Source: Cymodocea nodosa
Taxonomy: Eukaryota; Streptophyta; Magnoliopsida; Alismatales; Cymodoceaceae
Direction of reading: 5' to 3'
Assembly: GCA_036874045.1 (NCBI GenBank)
Contig: CM072335.1
Span: 15,024,001 to 15,088,000 of the forward strand
DNA: 64,000 bases
In this document: in pieces, positions 4,415 through 61,469 of the stretch
How positions within the stretch are numbered: position 1 is the first letter of the stretch
Layout: each line of letters begins with the position of its first letter
Program-made: the position numbers and the translations under genes
Notes under the pieces: generated by a model
What the model was told of the DNA's origin: nothing
Databases searched by the model: none
Seen by the model: only the letters and a program-made list of their open reading frames with translations

Positions 4415-4441
4415 AGAAGATTAAACCCAAACATAAAAGAT

Positions 4442-5881: not shown

Positions 5882-5914
5882 GATGACCCCTATCTTTATA
5901 AGTTAGGCCTTGAT

Positions 5915-19146: not shown

Positions 19147-19239
19147 TGTAAGATCGTATGACAACACAAGAAGGGGTGAATTGTGTTTTTCAACATTTTC
19201 GATTATAATTGAGACTTCAAAACTCAAAACCAAGTCGAG
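18874..19239 (+). repeat. 366-bp direct repeat, copy 1
   Basis: Matches 21864-22229 at a constant offset of 2990, with about 11 substitutions and no gaps. It contains the end of the GyC piece plus the first 93 bases of a minus-strand Sirevirus LTR (from 19147). Confidence 0.88.
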
Positions 19240-31787: not shown

Positions 31788-33648
31788 AACCATTTGGCTG
31801 CAAGTGTTTTATTCTTAATACTAAGGATAAAAGGGATAAATTTCAAGCCAAAGCAGATGAAGGAATTTTTGTAGGTTACTCTACTAGAAGTAAAGCCTAT
31901 AGAGTATATAACAAGACTTCTAGAACTATTGAAGAAACCCTCCATGTAAGCTTCAATGAAAATTCTTTTAGAGAATCTTAATCTAAAGATGATAATGATG
32001 ATTTGATCAATTTCCCAAAAGATTTAGAGATCAATAAAGAGATTGAAGATTTATCTGAGAAAATCAAAAATATGAACTTAAATGATCAAACTAATGATGA
32101 AAGTGATGGACTTTCAGATGTTGATGAGAATATTGAGGAAAATCAGAGAAATTGGCGTTATTCTTCATCACATCCCATTACTCAAGTCATTGGTAATATT
32201 AATGAGGGAGTTAAAACTAGAGCTTTAGTAAATTTAAGTAGTATGAGTATGTTTGTTTCTATGGTGGAATCAAGGAATATAGAAGAAGCATTATCTAATG
32301 AAAATTGGATAGTGGCAATGCAAGAAGAACTAAATCAATTCATCAAATATGATATTTGGGAATTAGTCTCTCCACTAGAAAATCAGTCCATAGTAGGTAC
32401 AAAGTGGATCTTTAAAAACAAAACTAATGAGACTGGTCAAGTTATAAGAAACAAAGCTAGATTAGTTGCACAAGGGTATACACAGGAAGAAGGACTAGAT
32501 TATGATGAAACATTTGCTCTTGTGGCTAGGTTAGAAAGTACTAGAATATTATTGGCCTATGCTTGTTATATGGATTTTAAATTATATCAAATGGATGTAA
32601 AGAGTGCATTTCTAAACAGTTTAATTAATGAAGAAGTTTATGTGAAACAACCACCTGGATTTGAAGATATTAAAAATCTTGACGTTGTGTATAAATTGAA
32701 GAAAGCCTTATATGGTTTGAAGCAAGCAACTAGATCATGGTATGAAAGATTATCTACTTTTCTAATAGAACAAGGTTATATCATGGGAAGAGTAGATCAT
32801 AATCTATTTATCGAAAGAGATGGCAAAGATCAAATTGTTGTTCAAATATATGTGGATGATATAATCTTTGGAGCAACCTTTGATAAACTAATAAAAATAT
32901 TTTCTAAAGAGATGACTAGTCAATTTTAAATGAGTATGATAGGAGAACTTTCATATTTTCTAGGACTTCAAATTAAACAAATGGATAAAGGTATATTTTT
33001 AAATCAGAAAAAATATGCAAATGAAATGATTAAGAAATTTAATTTTAATGATACAAGGATTCGAGGAACTCCTATGAGTACTTCTTTAAAGTTAGATATT
33101 GATGACATAGGAAAATCAATAGATCAAAGAAAATACAGAAGTATGATTGGTTCTTTACTTTATTTGACAGCTAGTAAACCTGAAATATGTTTGCTGTGTG
33201 TGCTTGTGCTAGATTTCAATCTAATCCTAAAGAATCACCCTCAATTGCGGTTAAAAGAATATTTAGATATATACAAAAGACTAAAAATTTCAGACTATAT
33301 TATTCTATGGATAGTTCAGTAGATCTTATAGGATATATTGATGCTGATTACATAGGATCTAAATCTGATAGAAAGAGTACCAGTGGCACATGTCAATTAT
33401 TGGGAAATAATTTGGTGTCATGGTTTAGTAAAAAGCAAAACTGTGTAGCACTTTCTACTACAGAAGCTGAATATGTTGCTGCTGCACTGTGTTGCACTCA
33501 GATTTTGTGGATAAGGAAAACTTTAGAAGACTTTAGATTATTTTATGATACAACTGAGATTTATTGTGACAGTAATTCTAAAATAAATCTTTCCGAAAAT
33601 CCTATATTACATTCTAGAGTAAAGCATATAGAGGTTAGACATCATTTT
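31754..33648 (+). pseudogene. SirB Pol: integrase end, reverse transcriptase and most of RNase H
   Basis: Starts with the integrase C-terminal block (FGCKCFILNTKDKRDKF, FVGYSTRSKAYRVYN). Reverse transcriptase includes WELVSPLENQSIVGTKWIFK, ARLVAQGYTQEEGLDYDETF, YQMDVKSAFLNSLINEEVYV, LYGLKQATRSWYERL and YVDD at 32849-32860. RNase H has LIGYIDADYIGSKSDRKSTS, KKQNCVALSTTEAEYVAAA and IYCDSNSKINLSE. TAA at 31979-31981, TAA at 32927-32929 and a frameshift near 33187 are visible. SirC cuts the frame at 33648, after VRHHF; the remaining codons are at 42800-42954. Confidence 0.9.
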
Positions 33649-38030: not shown

Positions 38031-39600
38031 CGTCGCAGGTTGTAACAGCAACAAGTGGGAAAGATTTTTTTGACAAAGTTTACAAATAACCTAAGTTCCC
38101 ATGTAATAAGTGTTTAAATAGGGTTTTTAGGCGTACAACTCAACGTAAAGAGAAGTCGGGTTTAGAAATTAAATAAATATTGAATAAAGTTTATTCAATC
38201 AAGGTACCCAAAATATTCAAGTATAACTCGTTGAGTTAACTAACCTAACGAGTAAAACGCTGTCTAGAGGCCGTTTTACACGTTACCTTATCTAACATAA
38301 CGTCTAGTTAGTACACTTAAAACAATTTTCGGATGCTTCCAACTGAAACGTTTCGAAAACAACACACATGCTAAACTTAACATTATCTTGAGAACATTGT
38401 AAACTATTTGAACATTTTGTCCTTTGAATCTAAAATAGTTTATTTGTCTTTTTAAATTATTTCATCAAGATTTTAAGAGGACATTAATTCAAATTAACTA
38501 AGATTTGTATTCTAAATTATATTAATCTGTTTTCGACATTGTTAATCCTCCCCCTACAAATATACTTCAAATATATTCAATCAAAATACAAAATATACTT
38601 GTAGTGACAATAGATATTAAGTATAACTATACTGTTACATTTTCTTTTCAGAGACTTCCGTTATCCTGACATCATCAAAAATGATTTCCATAATCAATTC
38701 CTACTGTATATGAATCAAAACACAACTTTGAACTCAATTCGATTAATTCAAGGAGAATAAAAGAATGTATCTCAAATAAACGTTTTCAAAAGTACTAATG
38801 TTGATTCAATAAATCAGTAGTCATATTGGTATAAACTATATGTGATTCAAAAATATCTATAATTAATGAAACAACTTTTTCTTTTCAAAACAGTAAATAT
38901 TGATAATTTTCTTTAAAAGTTAGTTTGAAAAGCTTGAATCATACAAGGGCTTTCTAATGTACCTGTGTAATGAGCTTTCAGTCAACAATCCCAGATCTGA
39001 TTAGGACCTTAGGTTGCCAGATTTAAAGAATCCTTTTTCTGGACAACAATCCTTACATACCTATCTGCTCAAGTACAAAAGGCTCGTGATCAAACTGATC
39101 AATAAACTCTCAAAGATTTTCACTTTCTAAGCACTTTTCATTTTAAGCACAGTATATATGTATTCCATTAATACAGATGCAATAAAACACAAATCTCATA
39201 CAATTTTTACTTCTATGATTGTACTGAGAATATAAATCAGTTTCAATAAGCTTATACTTTTGATTAACAGTTTAAGATGAGTTACATATAACTTATTCTA
39301 CAAGTTTAATCAATTAAGTCAAATTTATGCATGATCATATGCATTTTCCTTGATTCAAAGAAAACATTTAATCAAAATTTCAAAATGTCAGAAGTATTTA
39401 ATGTTTTTCATTTATACTTCCACTTAAAATCGTAAAAACTATTAAAATTGATAAACTACTTAAAATCAATAAGATACTACTATGATTTTACAATAAATAC
39501 ATAGTATCTTAAGCAGCAGTTTAGATATTACTTTAGATATTTATAATAAGTATATAATATCTATGAGGTGAACAACATCATCAATAATATTTATCTTTTT
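38031..39600 (-). other. SirC spacer between RNase H and third ORF
   Basis: Noncoding. It contains the uninterrupted version of the site where GyB landed in SirB (near 38265-38290: GTAAAAC then GGCCTCTAGAC on the minus strand), the complement of TTTGTAGGGGGAGGATTAAC (about 38544-38563), and the conserved core at about 38930-39117. The source of the 57-base filler at 40724 is 38128-38184. Confidence 0.75.
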
Positions 39601-42954: not shown

Positions 42955-44272
42955 AATGCTTAAACTCTACAAAAAGATAAATATTATTGATGATGTTGTT
43001 CACCTCATAGATATTATATACTTATCATAAGTATCTAAGTAATATCTAAACAGCTGCATTAGATACTATATATTTATTGTAAAATCATAGTAGTATTTTA
43101 TTGATTTTACGTAGTTTATCAATTTTAAGTGGAAGTGTAAATGAAAAACATTAAATACTTCTGAAATTCTGAAATTTTGATTAAGTGTTTTCTTTGAATT
43201 AATGAAAGTGCATATGATCATGCATAAATTTGACTTGATTAATTAAACTTATAGAATAATTTATATGTAAATCATTTTAAACTGTTAATCAAAAGTATGA
43301 GCTTATTGAAACTATTTCATATTTTCAGTAAAATCATAGAAGTAAAAATTGTATGAGATTTGTGTTTTATTGCGTTTGTATGAATGGAATACATATATAC
43401 TGTGCTTAAAATGAAAAGTGCTTATAAAGTGAAAATCTTTGAGAGGTTATTGATTAGTTCAATCATGAGCCTTTTGTACTTGAGTAGATAGGTATGTAAG
43501 GATTGTTGTCTTGAAAAAGGATTCTTTAAATCTGGCAACTTAAGGTCCTAATCAGATCTGGGATTGTTGACTGAAAGCTCATTACACGGGTACATTAGAA
43601 AGCTCTTGTATGATTCAAGCTTTTCAAACTAACTTTTAAAGAAAATTATCAATATTTACTATTTTGAAAAGAAAAAGTTGTTTCATTAATTATAGATATC
43701 TTTGAATCGAATATAGTTTTTACCAATATGACTATTGATTTATTGGATCAATATTAGTACTTTTGAAAACATTTATTTGAGATACATTCTTTTATTCTCC
43801 TTGAATTAATCATATTGAGTTCAAAGTTATGTTTTGATTCATATATAGTAGGAATTAATTTTGGAAATCATTTTTGATAAATTCAAGGTAACAGAAGTTT
43901 ATAAAAAGAAAATTTAAAAGTATAGTTATACTTAACATCTATTGTTATACAAGTATATTTTGTATGTTATTAATATATAAGAAGTATATTTGTAGGGGGA
44001 GGATTAACAATGTCCAAAACAGATTAATATAATTCAGAATACAAATCTTAGTTAATATGAATTTAAGTCCTCTTAAGATCTTGATGAAACAATTTAAAAA
44101 GACAAACAAACTATTTTAGATTCATAAAAAGAGAATGTTAGAATAGTTTACAATGTTCTCAAGATAATGTTAAGTGTAGCGTGTGTGTTGTCTTCGGAAG
44201 GAAGCATTCGAAACTTGATTTTAGTAAAGTATACTAACTGAACATTATGTTATATAAGGTAACATGTAAAAC
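42955..44272 (+). other. SirB spacer between RNase H and third ORF (left part)
   Basis: Noncoding. It contains a core of about 190 bases (43434-43626) conserved in all Sireviruses here and in GyB, a donor-like GTATGTAAGG at 43492, and TTTGTAGGGGGAGGATTAAC at about 43990-44009, whose TAG could serve as acceptor and whose purine run resembles an internal polypurine tract. GyB interrupts it at 44272; it resumes at 58950-59189. Confidence 0.75.
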
Positions 44273-46460
44273 TACATATTATTAACGGTTAAATGATTGT
44301 TAATTGCATAATATTTAGTTTATCATATAAGAATTAAGCCATTATTTATAATTGCACTGTTATATGCTTTAATTGAAGAATCTGCTTAATTTTGGGGAAT
44401 TAATGTCAATTTAGTATATTTCTGAACTGTCGGTAAGTTGTAGGCTATGAAATTCTTAAGTATCCGAATTTTCTGATAATTTAGACAGTTATGTTTAACA
44501 TACCGAACATATTCAGACAGTTATGTTTAACAGACCGAACATGTATCGAATAGTTATGTTTAAATTGCTGAACAGTTATGTTTTGAGAGAATATTTTATT
44601 ATTTCCTGAAGTACACGTGTCAAAACCATAATGCATGACTTAAGTGAACTTTCGGTGAGTTATCTATAACTATCCGAAATTGCAGTTGGGCATCAGATAG
44701 TTATCCCTATAACTCTCCGAAATCTCTTATTATTTGTATAATAGCTGAGGATACGTGTCATGTTCTGGTAAAGTGACTTAAGTAGATTTTCGGTGAGTTA
44801 GCTGTAACTATCCAAAATGCATCTGAGCATCGAATAGTTAGACCTGTAACTCTTCGAAATGTTATTTCATGATTAAACTGCTGCTGACACGTGTCGAGAT
44901 TTGGTAGATTTACTTAAGTTATATATTGGTGAGTTATTTGTAACTATCCGAAATGCATCTGAGCATCGGATAGTTAAGTTTATGCACGTGTTGAATTTAA
45001 ATGCTTTAGTATATCACGTGAGATGCACATGTTTAACTCGTTAAGTTAGTATAATTGTACGTGTTGAGTTACATGAATACACACTAAGACAACACGTTAT
45101 GTTAGCAGCTTATTTCTTTATATTTTCTAATATGCCACTGTAGCGGTTACAGGAACAAATAGTTGGAAGAGAAAAAAACCACGTTTGCATGTATCGCGTA
45201 GGAGAAGAAAGCATCACCGTTGATATGAATGAAGGAAATCCAACTGACCATTCAAGCAGAAGCAGTTACTACTGAAGAAATATAAAAGAAAAGAAGAAAA
45301 AAGAAGGTGTGATTGATGGGCGGACAGTGTGTGTAAAGGAGGATCAACGTCGCAATTCTCAGAAGTACCACACCAACCATCATCATCACTACCATAATCA
45401 CCAACCATCGGAGGTCTGTGAAGATACTTGCCTGATGTTGGGTCGATTCCGAGCTAAACACAGTGTCTGACAACCACTGTGAGGAGTGATCGCGTCGCGG
45501 GAAGGGAAGCCATTTTCACCAAGTGCCAACTCATTTTTCAGGAGATCGTAAAGCTTTTAGCCTTGGCTTCGGGTTGATGCCTGTATGCTGAAGAGGAGAT
45601 CATCTTGCAATTCTGGACTCGCGATTCTATAGGGAGAGGAGACAAAATTGTAAGTGGTTTAATTTTCAGTGGTGTAATCGCATTGCAAGTAGTGTCGGAA
45701 GTATTTACTGTCGAGTGAGATTACTTTACATTTCACCTTTCGCCCATTTCCATGTTCATATTAAAACAAAAATACCAAAAACAATTTATCTATGTTTGTA
45801 TGTTGTATTTGAGTGTTGTATTGTTTGTGTTGTATCGTTATTAATGTTATCTTTGTCAGTGTTGTGATTGTTTTATGTTATTTTAGTTTTACAGTTTACT
45901 GAAATTGGTTCGTTCAAAAGACTTAAAGATTTTAATGGTTACTGTTTGAATTATCTGAATGTTAGTATTGCTTAATGATAAATCCAATGTTAATTAACAT
46001 TAAAAAGCTTAATTGATGTTATTTACAATCTATGGAATCGCCCAATGGTTGGCCGAATTCCTCTGTAAATAGCAGTATTAAAAAGAAAAGACAAGCTCGT
46101 GGAGTTAACTTAAGTCCACGAGGTTAGTCCATTGAGTTAGCCATAACTAAACGAACTTAGTCCGTTGAGTTAACTGTAATTCAACAGAGAGCTTATTGAA
46201 TATATAAATTTGATTGTTAACAAACGAACAGTTTTGAAATTCTTCAGCAATTCCCTATGGGATCGACCTGTACTTGCACACTGATACAATAGACATTGTG
46301 CACTTGCAATTAAAGTACAAATTGGAATTAATATCTAAATTGTATTAAAGGTTGTTTGTTTACTTCTAAAAGAGAGAATAGGCATAAAGATAAATTAACT
46401 AAGTAAAAACAAAAGTAACAAATCCAAGTTTTCTAGTGTAGTGCTGGGAAAACACAAACA
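44273..46460 (+). repeat. GyB 5' LTR, first 17 bases missing
   Basis: Matches 56791-58949. It contains TATAAAAG at 45281-45288, hairpin phrases (44667-44703, 44808-44843, 44941-44976), and the Athila end block (GGGATCGACCTGTACTTGCA). It has about 33 extra bases near 46141 (an extra ACTAAACGAAC/CCGTTGAGTTA phrase) relative to the 3' LTR. Ends AACACAAACA. Confidence 0.9.
44941..44976 (+). repeat. perfect hairpin phrase in GyB LTR
   Basis: TAACTATCCGA (44941-44951) / TCGGATAGTTA (44966-44976), 14-base loop. Imperfect sisters lie at 44667-44703 and 44808-44843, and equivalents in the 3' LTR and in GyC. Confidence 0.8.
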
Positions 46461-46467
46461 AGTTTTA

Positions 46468-46486
46468 TGGCGCCATTGCTGGGGAA
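46468..46486 (+). promoter_or_regulatory. GyB primer-binding site, Asp-tRNA type
   Basis: TGGCGCCATTGCTGGGGAA, seven bases after the LTR end; close to the Athila consensus. Confidence 0.85.
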
Positions 46487-46491
46487 TTGAA

Positions 46492-46713
46492 ATGACTAGA
46501 ATTGAATTGAATAGATATAAGCAACTGTTAGAGCTGTTTTGTTTTAATAGCCAGAGTTGTGTGTTTTCTCCTGTAATTGAGAATATGGCATATACTTATG
46601 CTCAAAGATTTCTGAAACCTGTAATTAGCATATGTGAATTCTGCAATTCTGAAGGACACGACATTTCTGACTGTTTGAAATTGAGACGTTTAGATCCCAT
46701 GAACAACAAATGA
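46492..46713 (+). CDS. GyB small CCHC ORF
   Basis: ATG at 46492, only five bases after the primer site, so there is no room for a capsid gene upstream. It encodes 73 residues with a perfect CX2CX4HX4C knuckle, CEFCNSEGHDISDC (46633-46674), then a basic tail. The stop TGA (46711-46713) overlaps the next ATG (46710-46712) as ATGA. This is equivalent to the CCHC ORF of GyA at 2686. The knuckle suggests RNA binding, as in nucleocapsid. It is intact, unlike most of the element. Confidence 0.65.
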   Translation: MTRIELNRYKQLLELFCFNSQSCVFSPVIENMAYTYAQRFLKPVISICEFCNSEGHDISDCLKLRRLDPMNNK

Positions 46714-48370
46714 GTTATCCTCAATATAATAGAGGTGAGTATGAGAATCCTATAGTTTACTCAACTGATAGTCAGTATAGAATGTGTAATATGTTAAGAG
46801 ACACTGAAGTTTGGGATAGGTATGATAGATTGGAACATAGTATAGAGCAAAATTTGGACAAACTGGAATACTTTATGTGTCAACAACAAGAAGTCAACCA
46901 ATTAAACTATAAGGAAGCATATTTAGAACCTAAAAAGGATATAATTTACGAAACTGAAAAAACCAAAATGAAAATTGATCAAAAATTGAATGCAATGAAA
47001 TTAGATGATTTGGAAACAAAATTAAAAGCATTAGACGAATATACAATGAAAATACAAGTTATGCAACAGGACAATGAAAATTATAATGTTATAAACCTGC
47101 ATAATTTGCAAAATATACAACAAACAGAAAATACTAATGTAAGAGAATTTAAAGAATGCACTTTAAAACTAAAAACAATTGAAGATCATAATCACAAAAA
47201 TGATATGCAAAAACATCATGAGAATAACTAAAATCTAGAAGATGTATGTGTAACATTAAGATATGGAACTGATATACCACCAAGAACTCAAAATGAAAAT
47301 GATATGAAGGTGGATAAGAGTAAAAATCAAAATGATAATGAAAATGTAATAGCTGAAAAACTAGAAATCACTGAAGAACAATCTGAATCTGTGAATGAAG
47401 CTAAAAATGATCAAACAAATCAACTAAAAGAAAAAGAGTCTTTGAAATCAAAATCTTTAGCACCCTATCTTGAAATATTACAACAAACAATACCTGAAAA
47501 ACAAGAAAAAATCAGAGAAATTTTTGAAAAAGTACATGTTAACATTCCTTTGTTAGATCTATTACAGAAAATGACACCTTGTGCTAAATTTCTTAAGGAT
47601 TGGTGTAATAAGAAAAGAGAGTGAAAAGTTCTTAGAAAGGTCTTTTTAGCTGAGCAAAGTAGTTCCCTATTTCTGCCACAAATTCCTAAAAAGTTATCTG
47701 ATCTTGGAATCTCTGTTATATCATGCACCATAAGAAATACCATTCTAGAAAGAACATTAATAGACTTAGGTGCAGTTATAAATGTTATGCCAAGTGATAT
47801 ATTTGTATCCTTAAGATTAGAAGGCTTAACTCCTACTAGTACGGTTATTCAATTAGCTGATAAAAGTATAAGATACCCTAGAGGAAAAATAGAGGATGTC
47901 ATAATTAAAATAAAAAACTTTAAATATCCTATTGATATTGTAATTTTGGATTCCCAACAAATTAAGCATAAAAATAGTGATACATCTTTAATTTTGGGAA
48001 GCTCATTTTTAGCAACATCAGGGGCTGTTATAAATTGTAAGACTGAAGTAATGAAGTTAGCATATGGTAATGAGGATACTCAATTAAATATTTTCAAATC
48101 AGAAAGGTTTGAAGAGTTAAAAATGTCTTTACATACCATAGACTTTTTAGAGGATGAAGGAGATATGTTAGATGATGTGATTCAAGAAGAATTAAATAGG
48201 CAAATCAATTCTGAAATTTTAGAAGAAAGTGAAAGCATAAATATAGAAGGAGATCTGGAAGAAATTCATTTAAAAGATGATGATGTTCAATTAGGAGCTC
48301 TAGCTTCTGAATGGCAGCATTTAGAATTAAAACTTTTACCTCCTGAATTAACCTATATGTTTCTGTAAGA
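46710..48370 (+). pseudogene. GyB Pol: N-terminal coiled-coil linker and protease
   Basis: Frame 3 from ATG 46710. The first 170 residues are charged and likely coiled coil (LEHSIEQNLDKLEYF, LETKLKALDEYTMKIQV). A TAA at 47229-47231 and a TGA at 47622-47624 interrupt it. The pre-protease block is KVHVNIPLLDLLQKMTPCAK. The protease motif is LIDLGAVINVMPSDIF (about 47759-47806) with the catalytic Asp, then LILGSSFLATSGAVIN. An acidic linker ends at TAA (48366-48368). Same arrangement as GyA 2686-4414, with a longer coiled-coil part. Confidence 0.82.
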
Positions 48371-48380
48371 TAAACGAACC

Positions 48381-49920
48381 TGTCCAATCATTATTGCTTC
48401 AGATTTAAAAGAGGATCAAATAGCTAAATTAAAAGATGTAGTAAAAAGTTATAAAGAAGCGATAGGATGGACTATGACTGATATAAAAGGGTTAAGTTCA
48501 ACTTTATGCTGTCACCACATATATTTAGAAGAGAATGCTAAACCTATTAGAATTCCTGAGAGGAGATTAAATCCAAACCTTAAGGAAGTAGTCAGGAAGG
48601 AAATAGTTAAATGGTTAGATAATGATATAATATATCCGATTTCTGATAGCTCGTGGGTTAGTCCAATCCATGTAGTTCCCAAGAAATCAGGATTAACAGT
48701 TATTAGGAATGAAAGTCAAGACTTGATACCTACTAGAATTCAATCAGGCTGGAGAGTATGTATAGACTATAGAAAGCTGAATGCTGTGACTAGGAAAGAT
48801 CATTTTCCCTTACCTTTTATAGATCAAATGCTGGAAAGATTAGCAGGGCAAAAATATTTTTGTTTCCTAGACGGGTATTCAGGGTATAATCAAATTCTAG
48901 TAGCATTAGAGGATCAAGAGAAAACAACTTTCACCTGTCCTAATGGAACTTATGCTTTTAAGAGAATGTCATTTGGATTATGCAATGCGCTAGCTACCTT
49001 TCAAAGGTGTATGTAGGGCATATTTACTGGAATGACTGAAGATTTTTTAGAAATATTTATGGATGATTTTACTGTATATGGCAACTCATATGAAGTTTGT
49101 TTAAGCAATTTAGACCAAATATTAAAGCGCTGTGTGGAAAAAAATCTGGTTTTAAATTGGGAAAAATGTCACTTCATGGTTAAACAAGGAATAGTCTTAG
49201 GGCATGTTGTTTCTAAGAAAGGGTTGGAAGTAGATAAAGCTAAAATAGAAGTAATTTCTAATCTACCAAAATCTAAATCAGAAAAAGATATTAGATCATT
49301 TCTAGGACATACTAGTTTTTATAGAAGATTTATTAAAGACTTTAGCAATAGCTAGACCTTTAACTAATCTATTAAAAGATGTTCCATTTAACTTTGATAA
49401 AAATTGCAAAGAAGTATTTTTCAGACTTAAGACTAGCTTAATTTCAACTCCTATAATTCAAGCACCTGATTGGAACTATCCATTTGAATTAATGTGCGAT
49501 GCTTTTGATTTTATTGTAGGAGCAGTGTTAGGACAGAAGATAGGAAAATCTCCTAGAGTGATTTATTATGCAAGCAAAACCTTAAATGATTTTCAAGTTA
49601 ATTACAGAACTACTGAAAAAGAATTATTAGCTGTTGTGTTTGCTTTAGAAAAGTTTAGATCATATCTGATTGGAGCTAAAGTAATAGTATACACGGATCA
49701 TTCAGCTTTAAAACATCTAATAAAGAAAAAAGAAACTAAACCTAGATTGAACCGATGGATATTATTATTACAAGAATTTGATCTTGAAATTAAAGATAAA
49801 AAAGGTTGGGAGAATGTTGTAGTAGATAATTTATCAAGATTACAAATAGAAAAATCAAATATTGAAATTAAGGATAATTTTCCTGATGAACAATTAATGA
49901 CCATCAACACAATGCCTTAG
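48381..49920 (+). pseudogene. GyB Pol: reverse transcriptase and RNase H
   Basis: PERRLNPNLKEVVRKEIVKW, WVSPIHVVPKKSG, VCIDYRKLNAVTRKDHFPLP, FLDGYSGYNQI, FGLCNALATFQRCM, a TAG at 49014-49016, then FMDD at 49056-49067. A frameshift in the KDFSNS stretch near 49345-49355 moves the rest to another frame. RNase [51 protein letters not shown] and [24 protein letters not shown] at 49918-49920 ends the segment where relatives have a Trp. Confidence 0.9.
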
Positions 49921-49989
49921 TATGCAGACATAGTTAATTACTTAGTTACTAGTTTAACACCTAAGGGTTGGAATAGACAGGATAAGAAA

Positions 49990-51215
49990 TTGTTTTTCTC
50001 AAGAGTAAAATATTACTATTGGGAAGACCCATACTTATTTAAGAAATGTCTTGATTTGGTTTTAAGGAGGTGTGTTCCAAAAACTGAATATCCGAGCATA
50101 TTGTCTTTCTGTCATGACCAAGCTTGTGGAGGGCATTTTGGTTCAGGGAAAACTGCTGCAAAAATTCTGCAATGTAGGTTTTATTGGCCAACACTATTCA
50201 AAGATGCTCATAAATATTGCTTAAGTTGTTTAAGATGTCAACAAATAGGAAGAATGTCAAAGAGGAATATGATGCCTCTTAATCCTATTGTTGAGGTTGA
50301 AATCTTTGATGTGTGGGGAATAGATTTTATGGGTCCATTTCCTATGTCTAATCAATTTAATTACATATTGTTGGGGGTGGATTATGTATCTAAATGGATA
50401 GAAGTTATTCCTACAAAAACTAATGATAACAAAGTGGTAATACAATTTATAAGAACAAATATATTTGCCAGATTTGGAATACCTAAAGCTATTATCAGTG
50501 ATAGAGGAACTCATTTCTATAATAGAAGTTTTGAAGCCTTAATGAAGAAATATGGAGTAAACCATAAAATTGCAACATCATATCATCCGCAAACAAGTGG
50601 ACAAGTAGAAAGTGCAAACAAACAAATTAAATTAATCTTAGAAAAAGTAGTAAATCCTACTAGAATAGTTGGGCTAATAGATTGATAGATGCACTTTGAG
50701 CTTATAGAACTACTTATAAAACGAGCTTAGGTATGTCACCTTTTAGGCTAGTATATGGAAAAAGTTGTCATTTACCTGCTAAAATAGAACATAAAGCTTA
50801 TTCGGCATTAAAAACATTGAACACTAATTTAAATCAAGTTGTTGAAAATAGAAGAATGCAATTAATTGAATTAGAAGAATTTAGAAATGAAGCTTATTCG
50901 AATACTGTAAGAGAAAAAGAAAAAATTAAATTTTGGCATGATAGAAAAATTATTCCTAAAAGCTTTGAAATAGGACAAGTATATCTTTATATGGCTAGAC
51001 TCCATAACCATCTAGGAAAATTAAAATCTAGATGGGCAGGACCTTACATAGTTCGAAATATTTATCCTTATGGAGCTATTGAAATTGAAAATCCTAAAAA
51101 TCAGAATATATTTAAAGTAAATGGACAAAGACTGAAACCTATTCTGAAAACACCAAAAAGCTCCTTTGGAATTATAGAAGAAGATAGAGTAGAGGACTAC
51201 TCGAGTTTTACTTAG
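49990..51215 (+). pseudogene. GyB Pol: integrase
   Basis: HHCC zinc domain (FCHDQACGGHFGSGKTA, CLSCLRCQQIGRM). DDE core: Asp in VWGIDFMGPFP, Asp in IISDRGTHF and Glu in GQVESANKQIK. A second frameshift and stops lie near 50670-50700, in the WANRLDDALWAYRTTY region. Then MSPFRLVYGKSCHLPAKIEH, KLKSRWAGPYIVRNIYPYGA and IFKVNGQRLKPIL. Ends naturally at 51213-51215. Clearly the same family as GyA integrase. Confidence 0.9.
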
Positions 51216-51811
51216 TAAGAAATCAGTTTTTATGTTTATATATATATATAAAATAAAAAAATATTAAAAATATATATATATTTATAAAATATAAAAATTG
51301 TTGCGGTTCAACCGATTGGATCCATCGGTATGACCGGAACATAAAAAATATGTATATTAATTTTTAGAAAAAATGCTAATTTTACCGAAACATAGTATCG
51401 GTTCAACCGAAAGAAAAATAAAAAAATAAAAAAATATTTAGGTCTAACCGAAACATAGTATCAGTTAAACTGGTAAAAAATAGAAAAACTATTATCTGTA
51501 ATATTTTTATTATTATATTTGCTTGTACAGGGGGTCCGTTGAGTTACGCTTAACTCAACGAGCTTACTCCGTTGAGTCTTGAGTTAGTCAATAAGCTTAT
51601 TCCGTTGAGTTAACTGTAACTCAATGGAGTACTGTAGCTAAGACCGCGGATAAAATAGTAACAGTTGGTTCGAGAAATGACCCGATTACCCGCCTAAACT
51701 TAGGGCTTATTTAAACTAAAACCTAGGGTTTTGGGGGCATTATCCAACAAATCATTTAGAATCTAGAACAATAGAAATCAGAGCGATTCCGTGTTGTTGT
51801 GTAACTCCACG
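51216..51811 (+). other. GyB region between integrase and third ORF
   Basis: Noncoding, with phrase arrays. Near 51300-51480 there are repeats of CCGAAACATAGTATCGGTT and CGGTTCAACCG. Near 51531-51640 there are CCGTTGAGTTA/TAACTCAACG inverted repeats. A TA-microsatellite lies at 51237-51250. Confidence 0.7.
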
Positions 51812-54019
51812 ATGAGGAAGATGAAGTCTGAATTCTAGGAAGAGGCATTGGACACCGCATAGTTTCTAAAGGAATCTGAAGAATGACACACGCGATAGAA
51901 GATCAAGAATACAACAAGAGAGAAAGAGCTACAAAAGGTAGAATCAGAACTCTTTAACTTGAGGAAAGTTTTAGTTGAGTTAGAAATACAAATACCACAG
52001 ATAATGGAGACACGAATTAGAGTGGCTATTGAAATTGCAGTAAGTAAAGAAAGAAAGATACAGCCAAACAATGAAGTAGCCCTAGAATTAATTCAATGTA
52101 AGTCCCGGCTCTAGTTCAAAAGACGAATCTGTAGACGAGCTAGCTAGGTAATATGGGAGCAGCAACGAGCAAGAGAACAGGAGGAGCCGACTACTGAAAG
52201 ACTTGTTCCTAAGGAACAGCAGCTAGGACCTTCAGTTCCACCATTTAAGTCGTTGGCACGAGCAGAAATGATGGGGCCTTCGATTGAAGAAGAGTTAAAG
52301 GAATTTCAAACACTGGTTCATGTTGGGAAAAACCAAGGAGAATCAGAAGATTTGGTAGTGGCTAAAGCACACCTAGTGTTTGATGCACATTACAAAAAGA
52401 GAGCTGCAGAAAAGTTGAAAGCCCAATATAAAATCAAAATGGAATAGCATCAAGAAGCTACTGCCAAACCTACTACAAAAGGAGATGAAGCTGGTCCTTC
52501 GAGACCAGTAATTATAGAAAAAGTTTAACAGGAAGAGCCAGTACTTGTGGCTCGAAGGCTTGCAGAGCCTACTTTTGTAGATTTAATTTTAGAAGATGAA
52601 GAGGAAGAACATGCACAATTAATCAGAAAAAGGAAAGGAAAAGAAAAAGTGCCTGAATATGAGGAAATTAAATTTGAAGTACCAATTTTTATAGGGCTTG
52701 TGGAGCAAATTTTTATTAACCTACTATCCGATTCTGAGGAGGAGCAAGAGGAGCTGTAGTAGTAGGAGCAAAGAAAAGAAGAAAATCAAGCTGAAATTAG
52801 TCTACAACCTGTACAAGAAGAAACAGAAATTAAGGTAGAAACTAAATTGCCCGTGACTCCATCCCAATCTATTACAGAATCAGAAAGAATAGTAACAAAA
52901 CAGATTGGTAGTTAGGAGGAAAAAGAAAGAGTAGAAAATGAAGAGGCTGAAAGAAGCCATTTGGACAAAAATAATTTTACAGATTCCACTGAAGAACAAG
53001 AAACTCTTCAGCAATTTATGGAGAGAAATCAAGACAGAGTGGAGAGTTCTACCAGCTCACCACCACAAACAGAAACAGAAATTTAGGAATCTATTGAAAA
53101 TGTTCAAATGCAACCTATGTTAGAGGAAGAGCAAGTACAAACCCCTCTGGAACAACAAAGTCACCTTCTTGACCCAACTGAAACAATAATTTTGAATGAA
53201 GTACATTTTTGTAGTCAGGAAGCTTATACTAATTACCAAGAAATAAGGAGTTACGACATTATTTATAGTAGACTAGTAAATTGGGATGGAATACAAGAAA
53301 TCAAAGATTTATTTGAATTCCAAGGTCTACTGCAATTCATTTCTCAAGAAAGAGGGCATGGAGTATATGAGAATTTAATGCCCTATTTTTATGCAAATTT
53401 AAGAGAAGGAGAAAGAGGATTAATTTCCAACGTAGAGGAAGCTAATGTACAGATAACACCAGAACTTCTCCACAACATTTTTGGTTTAAAGAATGAAGGA
53501 ATAAAAATTTTGGAAGATACAACTGCCGTCGAGTGGACTAAACAGGAAATTAAGGACTGTTTAGCTATCAATCCTGGTGTACCATTATTAAACAGATTGA
53601 AGCATTTAAATGGTAAAGCACACATGGTATCTAACATTCTGATTAAGAATGTCTATCAACGGCAGGGCCATGATATAGAATTAAGTCAATTTGTCAAATG
53701 GGCCACATATGCAGTTGTAAATAAGATCCAAATAAATTGGTCTATAGTTTTTATCTCTAAGCTGAAAACAGTGAAGAAGAAATTATTTTATGGAGATTTG
53801 ATTCCACTGCTAATGGTGGACTGTATCGATTTCACGAAATGGACATCAAAAAGGATCAGATCAAGAACCATTTCAGTGAAAGAATACAAAAATTTTGTAG
53901 CTGCAGAACTAGCTGTACCTTTTGGAGGAATTACAAGAGCAGTAGAGAGGATTAATCAATTAGAACTTCAATTAGAAAAACTCTAGAAGGAAGTAGATGA
54001 ACTTAGGAATAGAGATTAA
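51812..54019 (+). pseudogene. GyB third ORF, homologous to the Sirevirus third ORF
   Basis: One frame from ATG 51812 to TAA 54017-54019, about 735 codons, with many in-frame stops before 53108 and then 292 open codons. The N-terminal half is Glu/Lys-rich and low complexity (SDSEEEQEEL). The C-terminal domain (from about 53190) reads IQEIKDLFEFQGLLQFI, MPYFYANLREGERGL, ITPELLHNIFGLKNEGIKI, NVYQRQGHDIELSQFVKW and NKIQINWSIVFISKLKTV, then a coiled-coil end. Block for block it matches SirB 59190-61469. It resembles the domain annotated in plants as 'putative plant transposon protein', sometimes called envelope-like; I see no signal peptide or membrane segment. Function unknown. Confidence 0.82.
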
Positions 54020-54967
54020 ATTGTATTGTTCATCTACTTGTGTAAAATTGTATGAAATTGTATGATGTACTTGTAATGTAATTGATTCATATTAATGAAT
54101 GTAAATTTTTCAGATGCAATTTTCATACGTATTTTGGATGTGAAATGAATGGAATTTATTGAATATTATGTAATTTGTGGAACTTTAAGAATGAGTATGT
54201 AACAGATTTACAATTTACTGAATGACATGATAACTGCTTAAAAATTTCTACATGTTGTAAGGTAAAATGTAAATTCTGCATAACATAAAATGACCTGCAA
54301 GTTAAATCTTTATATAATATTCAGATTTAAACGTATTTTAATTAGAATGATGCATTAATGACATAGATTTAACTTTATTTCAGTTAGCAGAATGAAAAAG
54401 AGAAAAAAGAACAGAGAGGAACTTACGAGAGTAAAACTTAGAAGTTGCCAAGTGTTAACTCAACGAAGTAAGTCCATTGAGTTAAACGTAACTCCACGAG
54501 GTTAGTAATATATTATAAGGTCACTCCGTTGAGTTATCTGTAACTCAACGAAGTTAGTCCGTGGAGTTAGCAACAGTAATCGACTGTGTTCTATTGAGTT
54601 ATCTGTAACATAACGAGGTTAGTTCGTGGATTAAGCAGAACAGTTATTCTTTTAACCACGAACGAAACTTCGTTGGTTTAGCGGTTACCAAAATTTAAAA
54701 TTAGTAGTGGTACACGTACCCATAAAAATAGGAACCACGATGCACGTTGCAAGCCATGTTCTTGCAATGAGATTTATTCACTTTATGGATGTGTAGTATA
54801 TATATAACACAGAATGTTATTTACGAGTTACCAGCACTTTTAAAAGAAAGGAGAATGCGTTGAAGGAACTAAAAGGAGAAGCAGCTGATTCAACTTTATC
54901 TGACAACAAATATTTATTGAATGGAAAGCTTCAGACTGGTATGTAATTAATATTCTGTTATTTATTT
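54020..54967 (+). other. GyB noncoding region after the third ORF
   Basis: AT-rich. Near 54450-54690 it carries an array of TTGAGTTATCTGTAACTCAA-type inverted phrases and GTTAGTCCGTGGAGTTAG. A donor-like GTATGT lies at 54939, shortly before the small ORF. Confidence 0.65.
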
Positions 54968-55186
54968 ATGAGCACATGGACTCGTTCTCTAAGCACTAAA
55001 AGATTAGTAAGAACACCTACCCAGGAATTTTCATTGCAGAGGAGTATTGAAAAATTTTCTGAACTAAACTTTAACGAAATTCTTTGGGGTGTAGCTAACC
55101 TTTCTTTAAAAGAGAACGTAGAGATGACTACTCCAGTAGAAAAACCATTAAAACTTATTCTAGGAAATCAACTAGCTCGCTTGTGA
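54968..55186 (+). CDS. GyB 72-residue ORF, possible Gag N-terminus remnant
   Basis: ATG 54968 to TGA 55184-55186. The start, WTRSLSTKRLVRTPTQEFSL, resembles the start of the displaced GyA Gag, WVRDSASRLIRQTPLEEVSV (7298 on), and the ORF sits at the corresponding place before the first polypurine cassette. The rest, LGNQLARL at the end, has no capsid domain. It is either a truncated Gag or an unrelated short ORF. The resemblance is short and judged by eye. Confidence 0.4.
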   Translation: MSTWTRSLSTKRLVRTPTQEFSLQRSIEKFSELNFNEILWGVANLSLKENVEMTTPVEKPLKLILGNQLARL

Positions 55187-55639
55187 GCCACCAAAGGCAT
55201 AAGAGCTTGGGTTCCACACAAGACACTGATTTATTAATATCTATTAAATATTATTTTGTTTTATATTTTTCTTTTATCTATGAATGAAAAGTTTTTCAAA
55301 ATCAAAAATCAGAATATGTAGAAGGAGATACAAATGAAACAAGATATGTAACTAATTACTCATCCTAAATTTTAAATCAAGCAAAACTGTATACATGTCT
55401 GCTACAATTACTGTACTTATTGTCAAATCTTTTACATTGAAGGCAATGCAAAATGTAGGTATGGGGGGGAGGTAATTGAAATAACAGTCATGTAAGTTTG
55501 TTAATTAAAGGAATTAAAATGGTACTGCAAAGTTTTGAGGAAATTGAAAATTTTTATGAACTTGGTGTAACTATCCGATAAATGAGATTGTAAAATTTTT
55601 ATAAACTGCTTGAATGTTATATTTAGAAGGCTATATAAG
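55187..55639 (+). other. GyB 3' region with upstream hairpin/polypurine cassette
   Basis: Inverted repeat TTTTACATTG (55430-55439) / CAATGCAAAA (55444-55453), one mismatch, then AGGTATGGGGGGGAGG from 55457. Same design as GyA 9065-9106. Otherwise no feature seen. Confidence 0.65.
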
Positions 55640-56640
55640 ATGCTATTGAATTTACTATTTATGCAAATCTAGATATAGTATCTTATGTTTTTCTGAATTT
55701 CATGAGTTTAACAGTTTCACGATTTTAAAATGAAATCAGAATGCTTAATGAAAAAATCAGTAAATTATCTGAAGTCCTGAAAGAACTGAGATGTGAATTC
55801 TAGATTAAATGAACCACATATGATTAAAGATACATTTAATTTGACTGATTGAACTTGTAGAATGATTTATGTGTAGATCTTATTAACTACAGAAAAAGTA
55901 TGAGCTTATTGTTATGGATTCATATTTTCAGTAAATGATAGAAGCAAGACTATATGAGATTGGTGTTTTACTGCATCTGTATTAATGAAATATGTACATA
56001 TATAGTATGTGATTAATGTTTTGTTTTGTGTTTGTAGTATTTTAAATAAAATAAAAAAGAGAAAATTTTGAGAGTTTATTGACTTGTTTGATCACGAGCC
56101 TTTTGTACTTGAGCAGATAGGTATGTAAGGATTGTTGACCTGAAAAAGGACTCTTGAAATCTGGCAACCTAAGATCCTGATCAGATTTGAGATTGTTGAC
56201 TGAAAGCTCGTTACATGGGTACATTAGAAAGCTCTTGTATGATTCAAGCTTGTCAAATTAACTTTTAAAGTACAAATATATATATATATATATACATATA
56301 CTGTTCTGAAAAGATACAAGTATTTTGTGAAATACAAATATCTTATGAATCGAGTATATTTTCTGTTATCTAGAATTGCTGTAATATGAATCTAGAATTG
56401 ACTTTTGAAGTTGTTTAATGGAGATACAATTCTTTATTCTACTTGTCTTAATCAAATTGAATTGGATTGTACTTTGATTCATATGTTGTTGAAATTTCTT
56501 CTAGCAATCTTATTGGAAAATTTATGATGACAGATGATGAAAAGAAGAACAAACGATAATATAATTAACACCTATGTGATGATGATATGCTTTGTATGTA
56601 ATTTACATATATTCTAAGTATATTTGCAGGTTGATTACTG
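55640..56640 (+). repeat. Sirevirus-like noncoding module in GyB
   Basis: Homologous to the spacer between RNase H and third ORF of the Sireviruses (SirB about 43040-43995). The core 56094-56272 differs from SirB 43466-43642 at about 15 of 177 positions. It includes donor-like GTATGTAAGG at 56121 and acceptor-like TATATTTGCAG ending at 56639. No ORF. Confidence 0.85.
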
Positions 56641-56773: not shown

Positions 56774-58949
56774 TGTTTAGAATGAAAAAGTGCATATTAT
56801 TAACGGTTAAATGATGGTTAATTGCATAATATTTAGCTTATCATATAAGAATTAAGTCATTATGTTATAATTGCACTGTTATATACCTTAATTGAAGAAT
56901 CTGCTTAATTTTGGGGAATTAATGTTAATTTAGTACATTTTGAACTGTCGGTAAGTTGCAAGCTGTGAAATTCTTAAATATCCGAATTTTCTGATAATTC
57001 GGACAGTTATGTTTAACATACCGATCATATTCGAAGAGTTATGTTTAACAGACCGAACATGTATCGGATAGTTATGTTTAAATTGCCAAACAGTTATATT
57101 TTGAGAGAATATTTTATTATTTCTTGAAGTACACGTGTCGAAACCATAATGCATGACTTAAGTGAACTTTCGGTGAGTTGTGTATAACTATCCGAAATTG
57201 CAACTGGGCATCGGATAGTTATCTCTATAACTCTCCAAAATCTCTTTTTATTTGTATAATAGCTGAGGACACGTGTTATGTTCTGGTGAAGTGACTTAAA
57301 TGGATTTTCGGTGAGTTAGCTGTAACTATCCGAAATGCATCTAAGCATTGAATAGTTACACCTGTAACTCTCCGAAATGTTATTTTATGATTAAACTGTT
57401 GTTGACATGTGTCAAGATCTGGTAGATTTACTTAAGTTATATATCGGTGAGTTATTTGTAACTATCCGAAATGCATCTGAGCATCGAATAGTTAAGTTTA
57501 TGCACATGTTGAATTTAAATGCTTTAGTATATCACGTGAGATGCACATGTTTAACTCGTTAAGTTAGCATAACTGTACGCGTTGAGTTACATGAATACAC
57601 ACTAAGGCAACACGTTATGTTAGCAGCTTATTTCTTTATATTTTCTAATATGCCACTGTAGCGGTTGTAGGAATAGACAGTTGGAAGAGAAAAAAACCAC
57701 GTTTGCACGTATCGCGTAGGAGAAGAAAGCATCGCCGTTGATATGAATGAAGGAAATTCAATCGACCATTCAAGTAGAAGCAGTTACTACTGACAAAATA
57801 TAAAAGAAAAGAAAAAAAAAGAAGAAGGTGTGATCGATGGGCGGACAGTGTGTGCAGAGGAGGATCAACGTCGCAATTCTCTAAAGTACCACACCAACCA
57901 TCATCACCATCACCAAAATCACCAATCATCGGAGGTCTGTGAGGATACTTGCCTAATGTCGGGTCGATTCCAAGCTAAACACAGTGCCTAACAACCATTG
58001 TGAGGAGTGATCGCGTCGTGGGAAGGAAAGCCATTTTCACCAAGTGCCGACTCATATTTTAGGAGATCGTAAAGCTTTTAGCCTTGGCTTCAGGTTGATG
58101 CCTGTATGCTGAAGAGGAGATCATCTTGCAATTCTGGACTCGCGATTCTATAAGGAGAGGAGACAGAATTGTAAGTGGTTTAATTTTCTGTTGTGTAATC
58201 GCGTTGCAAGTAGTGTCGGAAGTATTTACTGTCATGTGAGATTACTTTACATTTCACCTTTCGCCCATTTCAATGTTTATATTAAAACAAAAATACCAAA
58301 AACAATTTATGTATGTTTGTATGTTGTATTTGAGTGTTGTATTGTTTGTGTTGTATCGTAATTAATGTTATCTTTGTTAGTGTTGTGATTGTTTTATGTT
58401 ATTTTAGTTTTACAGTTTACTGAAATTAGTTCGTTCAAAAGACTTAAAGATTTTAATGGTTACTGTTTGAATTATCTAAATGTTAGTATTGCTTAATGAT
58501 AAATCCAATGTTAACTAACATTAAAAAGCTTAATTGATGTTATTTACAATCTGTGGAATCGCCCAATGGTTGGCCGAATTCCTCTATAAATAGCAGTATT
58601 AAAAAGAAAAAACAGGCTCGTAGAGTTAACTTAAGTCCACGAGGTTAGTCCGTTGAGTTAACTGTAATTCAAAGGAGAGCTTATTGAATATATAAATTTG
58701 ATTGTTAACAAATGAATAGTTCTCAAGTTCTTCAACAATTCCCTATGGGATCGACCTATACTTGCACACTGATATAATAGACACTGTGCACTTGCAGTTA
58801 AAGTACAAATTGGAATTAATATCTAAATTGTATTAAAGGTTGTTTGTTTACTTCTAAAAGAGAGAATAGGCATAAAGATAAATTAACTAAGTAAAAACAG
58901 AAGTAACAAATCCAAGTTTTTCTAGTGTGGTGCTGGGAAAACACAAACA
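56774..58949 (+). repeat. GyB 3' LTR
   Basis: 2176 bp from TGTTTAGAATG to ACACAAACA, followed by TGCAT. TATAAAAG at 57799-57806. It contains the Sirevirus-like promoter segment 57530-57625. Confidence 0.88.
57530..57625 (+). promoter_or_regulatory. LTR segment shared by GyB and the Sireviruses
   Basis: Begins TATCACGTGAGATGCACATG and runs through CTCGTTAAGTTAG and CACTAAGGCAAC to TTAGCAGC. SirB 27200-27297 shows the same order with about 15 differences in 96. It lies about 170-270 bases upstream of the GyB TATA box. Confidence 0.75.
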
Positions 58950-59189
58950 TGCATCTAGACAATGTTTTACTCATTAGGTTGGTTAACTCAATGAGTTATA
59001 CTTGAATATTTCGGGTACCATGATTGAATAAACTTTATTCAATATTCATTTAAAATCCAAACCCGACTTCTATACACATTGTGTTATTCGCCTAAAACCC
59101 TATTTAAACACTTATTACACGGGCACTTAGGTTATTCGTAAACTTTGTCAAAAAAAATCTCTCGCTTGTTGCTGTTACAACCTGCGACG
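58950..59189 (+). other. SirB spacer, right part, up to third ORF
   Basis: Resumes after GyB with TGCATCTAGAC and matches SirC 38031-38290 in reverse. Noncoding. Confidence 0.8.
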
Positions 59190-61469
59190 ATGGTCTTCAA
59201 GTTATACAAAGGTCGTGGCAGAGGAAAAGGCAAAAGCAGAGGAAATGCAAAAGGAAAAGAAATAAATATTGATGAAGTTTCATGCACTTGGTTCAAGAAA
59301 ATACTTCGAGTGGACAAAAGGTTAGCACAAATTTATAGTGAATACTTCTTTCCTCAAGGTATACTAGATGAAGTTAGACAAGAGCTTCAAAATACTGATG
59401 CAAATATTACATACATGAGTATTCGAAGTAAATATGATAGAGAATACAGAATGAAATGTGCTAAGATTGCATTTCTCAAACAGTATACAAAATATATGGA
59501 AAAAGGTGTAGGTTCATCAAATAGAATTCCTCAAACTCCTCTGAGTGGTACACGACTACGTGCATTTGAGGAAGAACATGAATCTGCTATACCTACTCCT
59601 TTGTATTCAAAAGAAGTAGAATCAAATATTACTGTAGATAAAAGAAAAGTTGAAGGTCTTTGAAAGGCAGTTGCAATAAAAAGTGCCTTAGAAGAATTAA
59701 AGCAGAAAACTTTTATGGAACAATTTGAAAAGAAAACAGCAATACTTGAAGAGAAGAAACAAAAGTGTTATGGAAGAAGGAAAATTAGAAAAATTATGAC
59801 TAAGGAAACAAAGTCTACTGAAAAAGGAAAATCGAGTGAGCATTTATTTCCAAAGGACAATGTATGTCTAGACATTGTACCTTATAGTGCATTTGATAAA
59901 CTCATCAGTTCTGAGCATATTGAAACTGATGAAGATAATGAGACTTTATTTTCCCTTGCTAGAAAACTTGAGAAGAAATCCAAGTCAAATATGAGCTCAA
60001 GTTTTTCTATTAGTACAAGTCCTGATGATGTAGAAATTGAAAAATTAGAGCATCAGGCACATGACATTAAACAAATTATTGCAGATATAATTGACAATGT
60101 TGAGGCAGTAACTAGTTCACAGGCTGAATTGTCTAGAGTAGCGGATATTGAAAAAGTTAAGACTCCAGAAGAGCTGAATGTCAACTAGCCTTCTTCAGAA
60201 TCTATAGAAGTAGAGTCTGAGAATTCATAGTATGTATCAATGGAGATATCTGTTGAACAAAATGAACAATTACAAACAGATACACTAGTTGTAGAATTTG
60301 TGGAAAAATTGAACTCTGATCATTCTATAGAGACTGAACAGATGAATGTAGAGCATAATGAAGATGTTCCTTACACTATTGAAGCTGAAGAATCAAGTGT
60401 ACATAAGCAGCTTCAAGAAAATATTTTCACAAAGGAACAACATGACATTCATTTTAAAGAAGAAGTTCCTGAAGATGAATTAAACTCTATATCACGGCTT
60501 CAGGTATCACCTTCTTTGTGTACAGTATTACAAATTCATGCTAATTCAATTCATTTTATATTTGAGGAAGTAATGTAGAAATATAATAATCTAATTACAT
60601 GTCAGATTCTACATGCTCGACCAATAAAATTCAGAAATTTGATTAATATGAGAGATCTATTTGAGTATCAAGGCCTCATTCAATTCTTGCCAGTTGGAAC
60701 AAAATGGAAACAGTACACATAGCTTATTACAACTTTTTATAGCAATCTGGTCAAGAATGAAAATATACTGAAAACTCAAATAAATAAACAGGAGTTAATA
60801 TTGTCTCCTGAATTAATTTTTGAAGTTTTGGGATTAAAGAATGAAGGTGTTGTTGTTACAAACAGATTTTACAAGATCAGACAACTAGAATGGAACATTC
60901 TGTCTTTATCAAAAATTCCAGATGTATATACTAAAATGAGATTAATGGAAAATTTAAATGTAGAGGCAAGATTTATTGCAAATATATTGCATGCCAATTT
61001 ATTTCAGAGAGTCGGACACAATATGGAAGTCAGCAGAAGCTGTTTATATGCTACTTATGGTCTGCTGAATAGAATTCAAATCAATTGATTTGATGTTTTT
61101 ACTTCTCAACTACAGCATATGAATTCAAAGTTATTTTTTGGTGATGTTGTATGTAGACTCCTTGCAAGCCAATTGAATTTATCTGACTGGCCCTCTAAAA
61201 CTAAAGGCATGAGAGCTTTTAGTATAAAAGATTTGCAAAAATTCCAAGCCTTACATCAACCTCATCAACAACAACAACAACAACAACAACCAACAGATTG
61301 TACAGAACAGATTCGACCACAACAACCAAGTTATTCAATTCAAGCAGAACAACAACCCTAGATACCTCCTGACCTAGATGATGTGCTTAATGACATCAGA
61401 AATGATATTAGGCATCTAGGAGATAAAATCTGTAATGCTATAAGTGATATACTTAGGAGGAATAGATAA
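59190..61469 (+). pseudogene. SirB third ORF (envelope position)
   Basis: ATG at 59190, preferred because SirC keeps an ATG at the same place; stop TAA 61467-61469; 759 codons in one frame with about eight stops, most of them one transition from CAG, CGA or TGG. N-terminus is Arg/Gly/Lys-rich (YKGRGRGKGKSRG), so possibly nucleic-acid binding. The middle is acidic (HIETDEDNETLF) with coiled-coil character. The C-terminal domain reads MRDLFEYQGLIQFLPVGTKW, LSPELIFEVLGLKNEGVVVT, RLMENLNVEARFIANILHAN and NRIQINW (Trp codon now TGA). A poly-Gln tract and LNDIRNDIRHLGDKICNAIS end it. The position matches the Sirevirus envelope-like gene, but I see no signal peptide or membrane segment. Function unknown. 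Confidence 0.85.

Follow-up and report, generated by a model that had tools for sequence, protein, structure and literature searches.

A noncoding module of about 800 bp is shared by Ty1/copia and Ty3/gypsy retrotransposons in a 64,000-nucleotide stretch of the Cymodocea nodosa genome (contig CM072335.1, positions 15,024,001–15,088,000 of the forward strand; hereafter "the window"). From self-BLAST alignment, the list of open reading frames (ORFs) and a Pfam scan, the window is read as a nest of elements with long terminal repeats (LTRs), including three Sireviruses (SirA, SirB and SirC) and a gypsy-type element, GyB. The module is homologous between the two groups, belongs to both families in many copies, and holds a core of ~180 bp that is constrained during replication. 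The reading we favour, with a probability of roughly 0.6, is that a cis-acting module from the Sirevirus linker was acquired once by an ancestor of GyB through template switching, that both families have kept its core since, and that exchange of LTR sequence continued.

A noncoding module common to copia and gypsy elements

The original prediction had placed, ahead of the 3′ LTR of GyB, a noncoding match to all three Sireviruses, which was borne out by self-BLAST of the window followed by pairwise alignment. The GyB copy, between the third ORF and the 3′ LTR (55817–56630, + strand), aligned with the SirB copy, between RNase H and the third ORF (43211–43996, +), over 836 columns at 73.0% identity (E = 3.5e-123, 433 bits), and with the SirC copy (38553–39341, −) over 833 columns at 72.9%. 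The SirA copy (25420–26207, −) was recovered by self-BLAST and alignment in two blocks, 25420–25991 and 26013–26207. When the GyB stretch was shuffled 200 times (first-order), the score reached at most 38.3 bits. The first refuting outcome named in the original prediction, no significant identity outside low-complexity sequence, did not occur. Of the predicted extent, 55640–56640, the homology stood and the start did not: 5′ of ~55817, identity between GyB and the Sireviruses fell to 0.27–0.64 in windows of 50 columns. The stop at 56630 is due to a gap of ~26 bases in the window copy, and older GyB-type copies (L037, L075 and L047) aligned beyond the internal polypurine tract (PPT) of the Sireviruses.

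The core was taken at the limits given in the original prediction, 43466–43642 (+) in SirB and 56094–56272 (+) in GyB. The alignment had 162 matches, 15 mismatches and 2 gap columns, and the recount agreed with the earlier figure of about 15 differences in 177, near 91% identity. That the module is far closer than the proteins also held: the third ORF of GyB (53087–53986, +) is homologous to that of the Sireviruses but only 32% identical to the SirC protein over 275 aa (E = 7.5e-43), so that divergence is far greater between these proteins than in the noncoding core.

The elements were classed by domain order. In SirB, an integrase, judged by eye from the ORFs, lies upstream of the reverse transcriptase (RT) and RNase H (30768–33647, +; self-BLAST and ORFs; cut at 33647 by SirC), which is the Ty1/copia order. 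Pfam found a copia-type RT, RVT_2, in SirC (E = 1.6e-19), and the extra ORF that envelope-containing Sireviruses have downstream of pol was present as the third ORF (ORF list and protein comparison). SirA, SirB and SirC are classed as Ty1/copia on this order, RVT_2 coming from Pfam in SirC and the integrase from inspection by eye. The pol of GyB (48369–51215, +; ORFs and Pfam), which runs through several frames, has RVT_1 at 48369–49016 and H2C2 and rve downstream at 49921–50685, by which order GyB is classed as Ty3/gypsy. GyB has LTRs of ~2.2 kb, a TGGCGCC-type primer-binding site at 46468, which we take to be Athila-like, and an extra ORF between pol and 3′ LTR; judged by layout only, it would be an Athila-like element.

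The module is widespread outside the window. The genome searched comprised 374.6 Mb in 28 contigs, in which a core motif of 28 bases, allowing up to 3 mismatches, had 3,540 + 3,590 = 7,130 matches and the reversed motif, used as control, none. Thirty loci (L009–L038) cut at the first exact core matches on contig C1 formed a positional sample, in which 8 were Sirevirus-type, 22 GyB-type and none in another setting. A second sample, independent of the core, consisted of 30 GyB-type 3′ ends on C1 picked by the GyB PPT/LTR junction (2,077 + 2,049 matches in the genome, control 0). All 30 held the module, four of them incompletely (L054, L066, L069 and L074). The two samples overlap, 58 of 68 rows being distinct over 56000–56500. 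These counts uphold the claim that the module is internal to GyB and no flanking artefact, and on the same grounds a nested Sirevirus fragment limited to the window GyB was rejected.

On the copia side, a Sirevirus RNase H motif had 1,406 + 1,402 matches in the genome (control 0). Within the range of the core matches listed, an exact core match lay 500–800 bp downstream of 14 of 29 exact RNase H sites. Eight of the other 15 sites were read individually: the whole sampled module stretch was present in five (L076, L077, L080, L081 and L082), part of it in L078 and a short remnant in L083, and it was interrupted by a Sirevirus LTR in L079. Both families carry the module in many copies. The core had no match in viral contigs.

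Constraint on the core

Majority differences between the families, together with trees of core and flanks, were compared over 41 rows. Of the 178 core columns, 6 showed firm differences; in the 5′ flank the number was 39 among 244 columns, and in the 3′ flank 83 among 347. GyB and Sirevirus rows were split on one branch in both trees (support 99/96 and 100/100), and since each family forms one side of that branch, a single origin is indicated.

A branch test was performed on a fixed topology of 28 GyB and 11 Sirevirus rows, with the core, freed of the search-pattern columns, set against the flanks. The GyB rows were 27 copies picked without the core plus that of the window (L069, L070 and L074 were left out), and the Sirevirus rows were eight copies picked by the core motif, whose columns were removed, plus the three of the window. 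Per column, the core changed by 0.041 and the flank by 0.178 on the stem branch; the corresponding pairs were 0.082 versus 0.314 on inner GyB branches (Fisher p about 4e-9) and 0.006 versus 0.073 on inner Sirevirus branches (Fisher p about 3e-4), that is, the core was ~4 to 12 times slower than the flanks on the inner branches within families. On terminal branches the values were 1.19 versus 1.00 for GyB and 0.41 versus 0.35 for the Sireviruses. Slowness on inner and not on terminal branches indicates that the core is kept in replicating lineages, whereas in dead copies it decays at least as fast as the flanks. The core is constrained during replication, for which recent copying alone is no sufficient explanation, and its near-91% identity between families reflects constraint more than recent transfer. 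Recent gene conversion of the core was disfavoured, as it would shorten the stem, yet the inner branches within families are short too.

The constrained function might be that of a peptide if the core were an antisense exon or small ORF, for which a frame of 71 codons is available (56045–56257 in GyB, minus strand). The window GyB and the Sirevirus copies L030, L036 and SirA keep this frame open across the core, and in the tight core eight of nine between-family majority differences fall at its third codon positions (binomial p = 0.001, uncorrected). In the wider core, however, the proportion is 8 of 12, not different from that of singletons (p = 0.12), and variants common within families are spread evenly over the codon positions (27, 28 and 25). 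Moreover, the frame is broken in the window copies of SirB and SirC, is preceded by a stop in the in-register rows among the 57 of 68 rows listed, and has no Pfam match, and we regard a peptide as distinctly unlikely.

Next to no credence is given to the module as a spliced intron, although donor-like and acceptor-like sequences stand at the same places in the window copies, with AG followed by GTATGTAAG in the core and TTTG[CT]AG at the module end. The spliced GyB junction had no match in 375 Mb at up to 3 mismatches, the Sirevirus junction not having been searched, and what looks like an acceptor is the border of the gap in the window GyB and of the PPT in the Sireviruses. The intron was rejected on these two grounds.

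Origin, exchange and possible function

The 3′ end of the module bears on the direction of transfer. In SirB, SirC and SirA the octamer AGGGGGAG stands at the module end, ahead of the third ORF; in SirB it is an internal Sirevirus-type PPT at 43994–44001 (+; sequence search). SirB has further copies at 61650, 61845 and 62050, of which the one at 62050 stands 10 bp ahead of the 3′ LTR, and the octamer occurs in SirC at 38555, 35579 and 35273 and in SirA at 25422 and 24022, the LTR distance having been checked in SirB only. Passages of Bousios et al. (2010; PMC2829016) give as a Sirevirus criterion this PPT octamer, set 10 bp ahead of the 3′ LTR and present several times in the linker. The older GyB-type copies L037, L075 and L047 retain a degenerate, purine-rich counterpart of the PPT and further aligned bases, which the window GyB lacks through its ~26-base gap. 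The intact octamer at the Sirevirus module end and its decayed GyB-type version favour one ancient Sirevirus-to-gypsy transfer, and the simplest reading would be that the Sirevirus linker passed to the GyB ancestor. A second gypsy element of the window, GyA, has a pol 72–76% identical to that of GyB in three blocks; it had no match to the module in the window self-BLAST and none to the third ORF in protein comparison. In GyA, at 3215–8677, a gag-like ORF, recognised by eye, lies downstream and not upstream of pol.

The following sequence of events is proposed. The Sirevirus linker would hold a cis-acting control module just upstream of the internal PPT. An ancestor of GyB would have acquired it once, most likely when RT switched templates between co-expressed or co-packaged Sirevirus and gypsy RNAs. 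The ~180-bp core would serve the replication of each element and would for that reason be retained by both families, while exchange would go on as Sirevirus LTR sequence enters the LTRs of GyB subfamilies. The data show the homology itself, its occurrence in both families, the constraint in replicating lineages and the LTR patches in both LTRs of two elements; direction, template switching and cis-acting function are inferred.

The LTR alignments point to a later uptake of Sirevirus LTR sequence into the LTRs of GyB subfamilies, with main blocks 94–95% identical in the closest cases. A segment of the GyB 3′ LTR (57518–57624, +), with its copy in the 5′ LTR (45000–45106, +; self-BLAST), is homologous in the same sense to Sirevirus LTRs (85% over 107 bp with the SirC 5′ LTR; matching segment of the SirB 5′ LTR at 27188–27294, +, self-BLAST). 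A longer patch in the GyB-type copies L011 and L014 is 93–94% identical overall to the SirC 5′ LTR (blocks of 93–98%) and 88–93% to the other four Sirevirus LTRs; Sirevirus LTRs are 90–97% identical to one another. L014 alone is uninformative on the inheritance of the patch, its 5′ LTR being without that part. The GyB-to-Sirevirus LTR junction was matched at 147 places genome-wide (none for the control), and among the 100 of 147 listed, pairs 8–17 kb apart numbered 14 on the same strand and 0 on opposite strands; 1 of 2,000 strand shuffles gave as many same-strand pairs. Two pairs were read (L084/L085 and L086/L087), and in each element the patch was present in both LTRs, with the GyB PPT and module preceding the 3′ LTR. 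SirC is the nearest match of the L084/L085 patch, in blocks of 94–100%, and the difference in closeness from the patch of L086/L087 may point to repeated exchange or to a long history.

A repeat of ~80–100 bp, which also matches itself inverted, occurs in the GyB LTR (about 1839–1915), the GyB linker and the Sirevirus LTRs; the extra weak LTR matches that it causes were excluded from the exchange count. The motif GTTRAGTTA occurs in one sense only, 5–9 times per Sirevirus LTR and three times per GyB LTR; CACGTG boxes are present too, and both motifs are absent from the LTR stretch of GyA at 11723–12410. W-box-like TTGAC and GTTRAGTTA motifs were counted and never used as evidence of function.

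A possible but rather unlikely origin of the sequence shared between the families is recombination or gene conversion at the DNA level between nested or neighbouring copies, with later amplification of the chimera and no template switching. Nesting does bring the partners together, as GyB lies inside SirB ~270 bp downstream of the SirB module, and the uneven closeness of the LTR patches to the Sireviruses (blocks of 94–100% for L084, 82% for L086) is what repeated local conversion would give. For the module itself, the 41 rows place each family in a single clade, for core and flank alike, with no sign of repeated conversion. The patch in both LTRs of two elements has, moreover, passed through reverse transcription, which still leaves room for an origin in DNA.

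Separate capture by both families of one third sequence, a host gene fragment or another mobile element, we consider very unlikely. None of the 30 positional loci, the first exact C1 matches among the 7,130, lay outside the two families; the homology is ~800 bp long and includes, in older GyB-type copies, a purine-rich stretch that matches the Sirevirus PPT region; and constraint within families is unexpected for inert captured fragments. For such a capture speak the pattern of a conserved core between poorly conserved flanks, like an exon with introns, and an F-box ORF beside the module in another GyB copy, which suggests that capture probably occurs in the GyB family.

That ORF belongs to a fourth ORF region between the third ORF and the module (L043, 6669–7601, continuing in L010), where F-box PF00646 was matched at E = 2e-7 and 31.1 bits against a cut-off of 20.5 in the one copy scanned. 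The L039/L011 copy matches this region at 92%, and the window GyB is without it. About 500 bp just before the common junction are present in 24 of 25 GyB-type loci. Polerovirus P0 proteins act on host silencing factors, and the GyB F-box protein might, by analogy, do the same.

As to function under a single acquisition by template switching, the core has the same orientation in both families but not the same place: in the Sireviruses it precedes the third ORF, in GyB it follows it. This difference in position makes a promoter for the third ORF unlikely as the role common to both. Either position would suit an enhancer-like DNA element or a signal that acts on the full-length RNA. By way of description, GATTGTTGAC and GAAAGCTC each occur twice in the GyB core, a pattern that protein-binding sites may show.

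Of 814 candidate relatives of the third ORF in the protein collection none reached E 0.001, and solved structures gave none at E 1. The third-ORF pieces had no Pfam match at 0.001 save one Sirevirus piece, which matched Transposase_32 at 20.8 bits, below the cut-off of 45. At a guess, a trans-acting role of the third ORF would explain why both families keep it together with the core. A wider scheme, in which the copia and gypsy lineages share one control system of homologous third ORFs, constrained cis core and common LTR segments, seems doubtful to us. If true, the same pair of protein and site would control, de-silence or mobilise the transcripts of either family, with the two systems held in step by LTR exchange. 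VANC proteins, the anti-silencing proteins of VANDAL transposons, offer an analogy for such a shared pair.

A number of points weigh against a single acquisition of a cis-acting module by template switching. The Fisher p values are approximate, since the counts behind them are branch length times columns, and the branch test also carries homoplasy from recurrent C-to-T decay. The first, core-picked sample gave a weaker result in the same direction (p = 0.07 for GyB alone, 0.13 for the Sireviruses alone and 0.009 combined). The core folded no better than shuffles (z = −0.28 in GyB and +0.50 in SirB), so that the RNA fold expected of an export element of the constitutive transport element kind was not found. 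No Rfam family reached its gathering score in the window; a lax threshold gave two matches, both far below that score. A trans-acting partner in the third ORF is unsupported, and its model, with a mean predicted local distance difference test (pLDDT) value of 36, was too poor for a fold search. The L086/L087 patch is only 81–82% identical to its best Sirevirus match, SirA, and a seven-row tree of the patch puts two GyB rows in a clade of their own (branch 0.039), which leaves nesting of the patch inside Sirevirus diversity unsupported. The direction of transfer rests on the PPT octamer in this one plant genome, and DNA-level recombination between nested copies could yield the same mosaics.

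Parallels exist in known systems. Marco and Marin (2008; PMC2410132) describe, in the passages concerned, diverged Athila families of Arabidopsis that exchanged segments to form new lineages, which then multiplied. The resemblance lies in segment exchange followed by amplification; there, however, both partners were Athila and gag, pol, env and LTRs were exchanged, whereas here two superfamilies share a noncoding module and LTR sequence. SirB conforms to the motifs in passages of PMC2829016 in its AGGGGGAG 10 bp before the 3′ LTR, its further linker copies and one copy before the third ORF. Those passages cover PPTs, an inverted repeat and LTR repeats, and mention an extra PPT in Athila4 and Calypso; no ~180-bp core or sequence shared with Ty3/gypsy was found in them. 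Template switching at reverse transcription yields composite plant retrotransposons in passages of Sabot and Schulman (2007; PMC1950507), where it concerned two Angela-like (Copia) complexes in Triticeae, whereas the module is spread through two superfamilies. Extra sense and antisense ORFs between pol and 3′ LTR are likewise known from passages of Vicient and Casacuberta (2020; PMC7264820), which leave homologous copia and gypsy third ORFs unmentioned, "F-box" and "Sirevirus" having no occurrence in the main text. None of the papers listed in one open-access library announced such sharing between copia and gypsy elements; subscription journals are mostly absent from it, and a prior report may exist.

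The two superfamilies are usually treated as separate lineages, yet here they share, across the border between them, noncoding sequence that is found in thousands of places and has remained under selection in both families, and LTR sequence has crossed as well. In the ~180 constrained bases common to otherwise different families, a cis signal of retrotransposons has left its natural footprint, and which noncoding sequence these elements need becomes a directly testable question. The implication is that copia and gypsy RNAs meet in replication, or that DNA recombines often enough for heritable chimeras. Repeat annotation based on nucleotide similarity can, as a warning, mix superfamilies.

Layout of the window

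SirA (minus strand) is interrupted by SirB (plus), with breakpoints at 26733/63590 in the self-alignment. SirB is interrupted twice, by SirC (minus) in RNase H and by GyB (plus) 3′ of the SirB module, and its third-ORF region continues 3′ of the GyB insertion in broken frames (59142–61250, +; ORFs, Pfam and protein comparison). The insertions of SirB into SirA and of SirC into SirB (26733/63590 and 33647/42802) both fall in RNase H, by inference ~145 bp apart in element coordinates.

The 5′ LTR of GyB (44264–46460, +) is 93.6% identical over the longest block to the 3′ LTR (56774–58949, +; self-BLAST). By eye, it lacks ~22 bp at its start (44264–44290), and no clean target-site duplication was seen at 44264–44290 and 58930–58970, TACAT versus TGCAT at most. 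Elsewhere in the window, a 366-bp duplication at 97% identity (18874–19239 and 21864–22229, ~2.6 kb between copies) covers a piece of GyB-type LTR and a Sirevirus LTR end. On C1, the loci L031, L032 and L033 are near-identical GyB 3′ ends spaced ~7.75 kb apart, like a tandem array.

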